From NCBI RefSeq assembly GCF_037031285.1, contig NZ_JAYEZO010000002.1, forward strand, positions 992,001-1,056,000: DNA of 64,000 nt. The letters run 5' to 3'. This document shows positions 45,885 to 48,553 of the stretch, one piece after another. Positions within the stretch are counted from its first letter, which is position 1. Each line of letters opens with the position of its first letter. The stretch is from Halobellus sp. LT62. Its GTDB lineage: Archaea; Halobacteriota; Halobacteria; Halobacteriales; Haloferacaceae. The notes under the pieces were generated by a model, which saw nothing but the letters and a program-made list of their open reading frames with translations, did no database searches and was not told the DNA's origin. A program made the position numbers and the translations under genes.

Positions 45885-46155
45885 GCGGGCGGGACTGGGA
45901 TTTGAACTCACTCGCAAATCACAGATTCGCTCGCTGCTCAAATCCCAGTGTGTCCGATTTAGTTGTTCACGAGTGCGCCGCAGACGTAGCTGCGGCGCGA
46001 GTGAGCCTCGCAAAATGCGGTGGGACTGGGATTTGAACCACAGTCGCTCTGCTCACTGCGTTCGCGACGCTCCCTGATTCAAATCCCATTCGTGACCGAA
46101 TAGTCACTCACGAGTGGCGAGCGCACGAGGCGCTCGCGAGTGTTCGTGACAATAT
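45885..46155. repeat. Two degenerate repeat units derived from the 3' part of tRNA-Ser
   Basis: gggactgggatttgaac recurs at 45891-45907, 46022-46038 and within the true tRNA gene (46161-46177); the second and third copies share 25 identical bases (46015-46039 and 46154-46178) 139 bases apart. In each unit the copy is followed by its own inverse (45894-45905 with 45938-45949; 46027-46037 with 46078-46088), then a perfect GC-rich hairpin (45975-45998 and 46117-46137). Confidence 0.75.
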
Positions 46156-46156
46156 G

Positions 46157-46240
46157 CGGTGGGACTGGGATTTGAACCCAGGAATCCGTGAGGATACCTG
46201 CTTTCAAGGCAGGCGCAATAGGCCGCTCTGCCATCCCACC
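46157..46240 (-). tRNA. tRNA-Ser (anticodon UGA)
   Basis: Acceptor GGTGGGA/TCCCACC, anticodon stem CCTGC/GCAGG with loop CTTGAAA (anticodon TGA), long class II variable arm (TATCCTCACGGATTC), T arm CTGGG-TTCAAAT-CCCAG, discriminator G. 84 bases, no intron, CCA not encoded. A TATA-like ctttat lies upstream near 46286-46293 on the minus strand. Confidence 0.96.
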
Positions 46241-47107: not shown

Positions 47108-48418
47108 TCAGTTCTGAACGATGAACTGCCCTGCGATCTCCGTGACTTCCTCCATCGTCTGCGGCTCGTCGACGCCGTTGGGGAACGGTGACATACCGTT
47201 CAGTTCGTTGAGGAAGTTCGCGTGCCGGGCTTCGACGCTGTGGATTCCGATTGCAGCGTTGAAGACGGCGTCATTCGAGACAGTCGGTGCCGCGCCCTTG
47301 TAGGCGGCGACGCCGGTGTTTTCGAGCGCTCTTGCAACGCCGAAGAACTCGCTCGGCGTCTCGTAACCGAAGTCGTACTCGGCCTCTTCGACCGGGTCCC
47401 CACCGAGTTCGTTCACGGTGTCAGTGATCGCCTGCACGTGAGCCGCCTCGTGTTCGCCGACGGTTCGGAGGTGATCCGGCACGTTCATCCGGACGCGGTC
47501 GCCGAACTCCGAGAGGACGTCGGCGTTCATCAGTTCGTCGTCGCTGAACTCCTCGAGACCATCGCGATAGAACGCGTTTTCGAGGTGCTCCAACGTCAGC
47601 GCGTAGTTGAGGACGTCGAGATCGCTCGTATCGTCCTCGACGGTCCGATCCGGTTCGGGGCGCGAGTCGTCGGTCTCGTACACGCTCGGGTCGACTTCGC
47701 TGGTGACGAACTGTCCGGCGATTTCGAGCACTTCGTCGATGGATTGCGCCTCGTCGACGACATCGGGGAACGGCGTTTCGCCGTTGACCATATTCAGGAA
47801 GCCCGCGTGACGCGCCTCAACGCTGTGAATCCCCGCCGCCGCGGCCAAAATGTCGTTGTTGACGACTTGCGGTGCCGCCCCGGCGTAGGCGGCGACGCCG
47901 GTGTTTTCCAGCGCCATCGCGACTTGGAAGAACTCTGTGGGGGTGGTGTATCCGAAATTGTACTCACCTTCCTCTACCGGGGTTCCGTTGAGGGCTTCCA
48001 CCGTGTCGGTGAGCGCTGAGACGTGGGCGGCCTCGTGGGCACCGACCGTGCGCAGGTAGTCGGGGACTTCCATCCGGATGCGGTCGCCGAACTCAGAGAG
48101 CACGTCGGCGTTCATTAGCTCGTCATCGCTGAACTCCTCGAGGCCGTCGCGGTAGAACGCGTTTTCGAGGTGTTCCAACGTCAGTGCGTAGTTGAGAATC
48201 GGGACGTCCGGTGCTGGCATCGGCGCTTCCGTCGTCTGTTCGGTCGGCTCTTCGGTCGGCATCGCCGTGGGGGACTCAGTCTGTTCGGTCGTCGACATCG
48301 CGTCGTCGCTGCCATCGTCGCCCATACAGCCCGCGAGTGCGATTGAGCCGAGTGCTGCGGTTGCCCCGAGGAAGCCGCGGCGGGTCTTGCTATCTTCGGT
48401 GTTGTCGGTTGGATTCAT
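47108..48418 (-). CDS. Tat-exported lipoprotein with two tandem ferritin-like domains
   Basis: 436 residues. The N terminus has TRRGFLGATAALGSIALAGC: twin arginine, hydrophobic stretch and lipobox, so the protein is exported folded and lipid-anchored. A Thr/Glu/Pro linker precedes two highly similar ~150-residue ferritin-like domains, each starting LNYALTLEHLENAFYRDGLEEF and containing HEAAHV and IHSVEARHA, which supply the Glu/His residues typical of a di-iron helical bundle. Homologues are called ferritin-like or desiccation-related. ATG 48416-48418 was chosen because the signal follows at once. Confidence 0.9.
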   Translation of the reverse strand: MNPTDNTEDSKTRRGFLGATAALGSIALAGCMGDDGSDDAMSTTEQTESPTAMPTEEPTEQTTEAPMPAPDVPILNYALTLEHLENAFYRDGLEEFSDDELMNADVLSEFGDRIRMEVPDYLRTVGAHEAAHVSALTDTVEALNGTPVEEGEYNFGYTTPTEFFQVAMALENTGVAAYAGAAPQVVNNDILAAAAGIHSVEARHAGFLNMVNGETPFPDVVDEAQSIDEVLEIAGQFVTSEVDPSVYETDDSRPEPDRTVEDDTSDLDVLNYALTLEHLENAFYRDGLEEFSDDELMNADVLSEFGDRVRMNVPDHLRTVGEHEAAHVQAITDTVNELGGDPVEEAEYDFGYETPSEFFGVARALENTGVAAYKGAAPTVSNDAVFNAAIGIHSVEARHANFLNELNGMSPFPNGVDEPQTMEEVTEIAGQFIVQN

Positions 48419-48523
48419 TGCTCCACTTCGTTCGAGCCACGACATCCGTAAGAGCATTTTCCGAAATCTGACACAAATGGCTCGGGGAAGCATTGGAACT
48501 CTGTCGGGATTCTCTCCCAAATT

Positions 48524-48553
48524 CATCCAAAATAGATGTCTGCATCCAAAATA
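48524..48553. promoter_or_regulatory. Direct repeat upstream of the ferritin-like gene
   Basis: catccaaaata occurs at 48524-48534 and 48543-48553, 19 bases apart (about two helical turns), 106-135 bases before the ATG at 48418. On the minus strand it reads TATTTTGGATG. Candidate regulator site or promoter element. Confidence 0.4.

Follow-up and report, generated by a model that had tools for sequence, protein, structure and literature searches.

Haloarchaea carry a widespread, clade-wide family of short DNA hairpins 3' of their tRNA genes. Two of these units, which are about 80-200 bp long and gene-less, follow the tRNA-Ser(UGA) gene in the 64,000-nt stretch of Halobellus sp. LT62 DNA analysed here (the window; Table 1). 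A unit starts with a trailer hairpin. The T loop and T stem follow in inverted form, then comes a shared core that forms a stem itself, and the last part repeats the host tRNA directly, from G52-G53 to the mature 3' end. The arms match the tRNA that they follow, and the cores are common to different tRNAs. As the best explanation, to which we give roughly even chances, we propose that the units are tRNA-addressed, cargo-less hairpin cassettes that are gained and exchanged at the DNA level by T-arm recombination. Among the readings offered in a preliminary description of the locus, that of a tRNA-derived short mobile repeat is likewise the best supported, since units occur behind many tRNAs and throughout the clade, with precise gain or loss at orthologous sites.

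At the tRNA-Ser(UGA) locus, tail copies, inverted T arms and GC hairpins were all located, so that both structured units noted in the preliminary description are real. The perfect GC hairpin ascribed to each unit is present, and the 25-base block reported as identical to the tRNA gene is exact when the sequence is read directly (46015-46039 = 46154-46178). The arrangement of the parts was refined: the tRNA tail had been placed first, followed by the inverted T arm and the hairpin, whereas the order in tRNA sense is GC hairpin, inverted T arm, core stem-loop and tRNA tail. The tail copies follow each other at start-to-start distances of 139 and 131 nt. From T54 to the end, the direct repeat of unit 1 is identical to the host tRNA at 21/21 positions; that of unit 2 has diverged further (18/21). 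The two units also differ in their cores. The class A core of unit 1 recurs 3' of many other tRNAs, and the class B core of unit 2 is also found behind the Arg gcg, Phe, Ala cgc and Glu ttc tRNAs of the same genome. Folding is much stronger than in dinucleotide shuffles: tRNA-Ser(UGA) together with both units folds as RNA with z = -8.75, unit 1 as DNA with z = -4.86, and unit 2 as RNA with z = -5.45. Elsewhere in the window, a minus-strand ORF of 472 residues (47108-48526) has a lipoprotein-like start and two halves that are close mutual copies, with the NYALTLEHLENAFYRDGLEEFSDDELMNADVLSEFGDR motif repeated.

Table 1. Parts of the tRNA-Ser(UGA) locus and its two hairpin units (positions within the window).
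Feature	Position	Strand	Basis
tRNA-Ser(UGA) gene, host tRNA	46240-46156/46157	-	ARAGORN; Rfam RF00005, 56.9 bits
Unit 1 trailer with perfect GC hairpin (8 bp, 46137-46117)	46090..46155	-	sequence, folding
Unit 1 left arm, inverted host T loop (7 nt) and T stem	46078..46089	-	
Unit 1 core, class A (TCAGGGAGC...GCGACTGTGG, final GG assigned to the direct repeat), own inner stem	46040..46077	-	
Unit 1 direct repeat, host tRNA from G52-G53 to mature 3' end	46017..46039	-	
Unit 2 trailer with perfect GC hairpin (9 bp, 45998-45975)	45949..46016	-	
Unit 2 left arm, inverted T loop and T stem	45937..45948	-	
Unit 2 core, class B (GCAGCGAGC...GCGAGTGAG)	45909..45936	-	
Unit 2 direct repeat, tRNA tail	45886..45908	-	

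The units are not restricted to this locus. A BLAST search of the region against its own genome revealed ten more sites, every one of them just 3' of a tRNA gene (isotypes Gly, Arg, Phe, Ala, Glu, Ser and Thr), and the arms at these sites track the T arm of the local tRNA, including the variants TTCAATTCCC, TTCGAATCCC and TTCAAATCTCC. A scan of every detected tRNA gene in three genomes from three haloarchaeal families gave full units at 17 of 43 genes in Halobellus sp. LT62, at 22 of 43 in G114 and at 19 of 42 in G326. Core motifs are conserved across families. Nearly every Halobacteriales genome sampled has 1-22 matches to a generic pattern (GGATTYGAA, 14-44 nt, TTCRAATCC), compared with about 0 for a reversed-pattern control, and such matches are essentially missing from about 240 other genomes of the phylum. 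For class A units in named genomes, 80 of 87 sit 3' of a tRNA on the same strand, at a distance of 35-386 nt and with 25 kinds of tRNA represented; of the remaining seven, five are at contig or fragment ends and two adjoin an integrase (tyrosine recombinase) gene. The search for the unit at other loci and in related genomes, suggested in the preliminary description, has thus returned copies genome-wide and clade-wide. A simple local duplication confined to this strain, which had been considered there as well, is ruled out by the copies behind many tRNAs throughout the genome and the clade.

Two apparent extensions of this range were dismissed. 'Actinarchaeum halophilum', which seemed to take the units beyond Halobacteria, resolves taxonomically to Halocatena halophila, a haloarchaeon. 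A match in a methanogen (G216, L372) was judged to be something different, as the repeat begins upstream of the T stem. That locus has three near-identical tandem partial copies of tRNA-Ala, about 177 bp apart and separated by structured spacers, directly 3' of tRNA-Ala(UGC).

In total, we collected 232 distinct units over 35 tRNA types, located 3' of the tRNA and on the same strand. Their boundaries are exact. The direct repeat matches the host tRNA in 98% of the units at G53 and in 92% at G52, but in only 16% at position 51; at the other end, mismatches amount to 0-10% through the tail up to the mature 3' end and then rise to 40-65% in the trailer. Since a tail identity of at least 80% was required for inclusion, the low mismatch within the tail is partly due to selection, which does not explain the sharp edges. 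The inverted arm, too, follows the host: for T-loop variants, e.g. TTCGAAT and TTCAATT, most units have the matching left heptamer. Past the T loop, outward pairing extends over a mean of 3.09 contiguous bp, compared with 2.25 (sd 0.05) when the right arms are shuffled among units, and the excess falls on T-stem positions 2-5, with none left at position 6. At 100 informative positions, the left arm agrees with a copy of the 5' strand of the T stem in 44 cases and with an inverted copy of the 3' strand in 28. Within the 132 class A units, the second pair of the inner stem is Watson-Crick in 98%, with three pair types, against 50% in shuffled combinations, and tandem G-A oppositions recur in this stem. 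The units thus fold as an imperfect hairpin whose outer and inner arms are paired. Special apex loops (GNA triloops) turned out to be no general feature.

It is important to note that neither gene decay nor termination accounts for this architecture, in agreement with the preliminary description. A decayed gene or pseudo-tRNA is ruled out because the tail alone is copied, with exact bounds, and an inverted arm is present; a mere terminator is ruled out because it requires neither T-arm copies nor host matching.

Several variants of the theme were seen. In a second class of units, found 3' of tRNA-Arg and tRNA-Gly genes (L004, L005, L025, L026, L274, L275), the tail repeat starts later, at the 3' strand of the T stem (e.g. 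GTGACTCCCATCGTGCCCG, CGGGACTCCCGTCGCGCCCG), and inverted arm and inner stem are again present. A further module, CCCACTTTTTCCGAGGGGCTGC...GCAAAAACTTGGGGAAAAAGACCGCTA, lies behind several tRNAs (L270, L356, L346, L349 and L283, in G114 and G046); it has the look of a terminator hairpin and is at times itself flanked by tail repeats. Finally, a one-base insertion in the T-loop copy (TTCAAcATCCC or TTCAcAATCC) recurs behind different tRNAs in class A right arms (L073, L076, L082, L085, L086, L091), with a related variant at L027, L033 and L271. This recurrence suggests that part of the T loop belongs to the shared core.

tRNA genes are classic docking sites of mobile DNA. The preliminary description accordingly offered tandem attachment scars as one reading, and it holds true that the repeat has the bounds of a classical tRNA attachment block, i.e. 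from the T loop to the mature 3' end. The units would then be what remains of gene-bearing elements (viruses, plasmids) after integration at the T loop and subsequent loss of the element body. Among the known archaeal and bacterial att sublocations is the T stem-loop (PMC8371274), and Phage_integrase genes lie beside several tRNAs of this genome. None of these genes, however, is tied to units. Where gene-bearing elements have integrated, they sit between the tRNA and its resident units and do not carry the hairpin. At tRNA-His (G000 C2:478471-491597, L141), two complete tRNA-His copies are separated by an integrated element of about 13 kb that has a gene for a tyrosine recombinase, and the hairpin units come after the far copy. 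One of the two integrase-adjoining class A units immediately follows a partial tRNA-Arg tail, an arrangement that displacement of a resident unit from its tRNA by an integrated element would produce.

The lack of cargo also speaks against such scars. Downstream of 289 tRNAs, most of them picked because they bear units, the spacing of tail copies is mostly a tight 60-180 nt and no gene-sized cargo was seen between them; the few wider gaps correspond to structured non-coding segments, tandem tRNA genes or one 1.2-kb case. Moreover, an attR scar makes neither a host-matched inverted left arm nor a conserved inner stem. The class A unit gave no match in plasmid or phage collections and the two core patterns none in 2.9 million IMG/VR contigs, in which the generic pattern had just two chance matches, inside phage coding sequence. 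A viral or plasmid origin was rejected on these grounds, and we regard attachment scars of gene-bearing elements as improbable. At another locus (L144, positions 9456 and 10870), the final 13-14 bases of the tRNA-Arg(UCG) tail occur twice in tandem, 1.4 kb apart, distant from the tRNA and with similar flanks; the two copies probably reflect stacked integrations.

Comparison of related genomes revealed that the arrays turn over. In 13 congeners, the tRNA-Ser(UGA) locus has no unit, a truncated remnant, or one or two units, and the order of the cores varies: A-B here, C plus a truncated A, B-C plus a decayed remnant, and C-B. The clearest case is tRNA-Glu(CUC) in the sister species G046 and G114, where the tRNAs are identical and a 101-bp unit is present in one species and absent from the other. 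The flank that directly follows the tRNA in the empty species follows the unit tail in the other, aligned from the first base. For tRNA-Gly(GCC), the species differ in which of two segments, both flanked by tail repeats, comes first. Cores are exchanged on their own: among 14 comparable pairs of units with the same trailer, seven share the core and seven have different cores.

The arrays are also polar. Where an array has at least two units, the first tail copy after the tRNA preserves the tRNA sequence better than the last in 54 cases and worse in 11 (p = 6e-8). The same bias was obtained with a strict threshold (27 vs 6 arrays, p = 3e-4) and in genomes taken without reference to units (18 vs 6 arrays, p = 0.02), the arrays being phylogenetically non-independent in all these tests. 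The farther a tail copy lies from the tRNA, the more it has thus decayed, which is the pattern that entry of new units beside the gene would leave. Part of the polarity could result from gene conversion by the tRNA that weakens with distance. Likewise, presence or absence between 20-bp direct repeats can be produced by deletion and not just by gain, and units can also be lost through repeat-to-repeat deletion of the kind reported for short direct repeats in haloarchaea (PMC3119063).

How cassettes of this kind might move can be sketched as follows. New units would enter at the tRNA through recombination within the T-loop sequence (TTCRANT), whereby entry would restore the tRNA tail and displace the older tail outward. 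The inverted left arm may allow a single strand (or a cruciform) to fold into a double-stranded, T-arm-like site, as integron attC hairpins do. Cores would spread among tRNAs by exchange between arms, and the arms might then be re-matched to the new host by hairpin-templated copying (correction of an imperfect palindrome) or by selection. Further observations count against the cassette explanation: cores are swapped without the trailer, which an integron-like move of whole cassettes does not predict; the match of the left arm is partial, fading between T-stem positions 3 and 5 and absent beyond; and the units are linked to no recombinase. A more far-reaching version would be a dedicated haloarchaeal system that recombines folded, single-stranded, attC-like T-arm hairpins, with tRNA genes as parallel integron-like entry points, polarised gene-less arrays and arms rewritten for each host tRNA. 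We hold this version to be conceivable, if doubtful.

The same observations can be explained by an account without any dedicated system. The units would then be by-products that hairpins induce during replication at tRNA genes. Template switching at short homologies (TTCAAATC) would duplicate the tail, fold-back copying would create the inverted arm, gene conversion would spread the cores, and deletion at short direct repeats would remove units. This accounts for the host-matched inverted arms with their variable match length and for core swaps independent of the trailers, and it is consistent with the lack of any linked recombinase. A precedent comes from Haloquadratum, where repeat-mediated deletion at short direct repeats includes a 22-bp partial tRNA duplication (PMC3119063). 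Hard to explain in this way are the sharp shared bounds (G52-G53 to the mature 3' end) together with the fixed orientation, the conservation of core motifs across families, and the restriction to Halobacteria, with hardly any units in the other genomes of the phylum. On balance, we consider such by-products a serious but rather unlikely source of the units.

A role at the RNA level, which includes the source of small RNAs raised in the preliminary description, was also weighed. The units could be putative structured 3' trailers that are transcribed with the tRNA and regulate its maturation or yield small RNAs; the left arm, for example, would be able to pair with the T arm of the tRNA itself. 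The constant 3' position in tRNA orientation fits this idea, as do the compensated pairs in the inner and outer stems and the strong predicted fold, in which, at minimum energy, the T arm of the tRNA is modelled as paired to the first left arm. However, units are missing from about every second tRNA of a unit-bearing genome and from orthologous tRNAs in sister species, cores are freely exchanged, and Rfam recognises above threshold only the tRNA itself, with no family for the units. We thus judge an RNA-level role to be quite improbable. Both plain attachment scars and a function solely as RNA fit less well than hairpin cassettes.

From a broader perspective, tiny tail-copying hairpin arrays are found throughout an archaeal class, at as many as half of the tRNA genes of a genome, and turn over between sister species. 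Should a recombinase drive this turnover, the arrays would amount to a cassette system that has many points of entry and for which no enzyme is known; otherwise, they would offer a clear example from nature of how hairpins drive duplication and palindromes are corrected. In either case, the annotation of haloarchaeal att sites and proviruses is affected, because tail repeats are no proof of an integrated element. The empty and filled tRNA-Glu loci of the sister species provide a test case for the mechanism. We found no published description of the units in open-access text, subscription journals being outside the search, and the family has apparently been described nowhere in the literature.

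Among known systems, integrons build tandem arrays at a fixed entry point, with the newest member nearest to it and an order that changes between strains, and their attC sites are folded imperfect hairpins with conserved arms and a variable loop. The arrays described here are similarly tandem, with the newest unit apparently nearest the tRNA, an imperfect hairpin and a shifting order. They differ in that the units have neither a cargo gene nor a linked integron integrase, that each genome offers many entry points (the tRNA genes), and that cores are exchangeable without the rest of the cassette. REP and PATE palindromes, which IS200/IS605 Y1 transposases mobilise, are likewise short, gene-less hairpins repeated in the genome; yet they are not tied to tRNA genes and have no host-tRNA arms. 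With the attR scars of archaeal tyrosine-recombinase elements (PMC8371274) the units share a direct repeat of the tRNA 3' part from the T loop. Unlike these scars, they add an inverted arm and a core stem, lack cargo, lie behind up to half of the tRNA genes, and were not found in the viruses or plasmids searched.

SMR-A of Haloquadratum walsbyi comprises about 110 bp with prominent inverted repeats, no coding capacity and no reported target duplication; it strongly prefers to insert in palindromes of other elements, and its mobilisation has been called enigmatic (PMC3119063). The units resemble SMR-A in being haloarchaeal, short and gene-less, in having inverted repeats and in targeting a palindrome, the T arm. 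However, SMR-A has fixed terminal inverted repeats and IS605-type or PATE palindromes as targets, whereas the target of the units is the tRNA T arm, their arms correspond in sequence to the host tRNA, and every unit is bounded by a directly repeated tRNA tail. SMR-A (HqIRS42/43/55) is set apart here by its description rather than by sequence comparison. The parts of the units thus have precedents in att blocks, attC-like hairpins and short mobile repeats, and no tested family fits all their defining features. Their nearest published relatives are SMR-A and the repeat-mediated deletions of Haloquadratum (PMC3119063).
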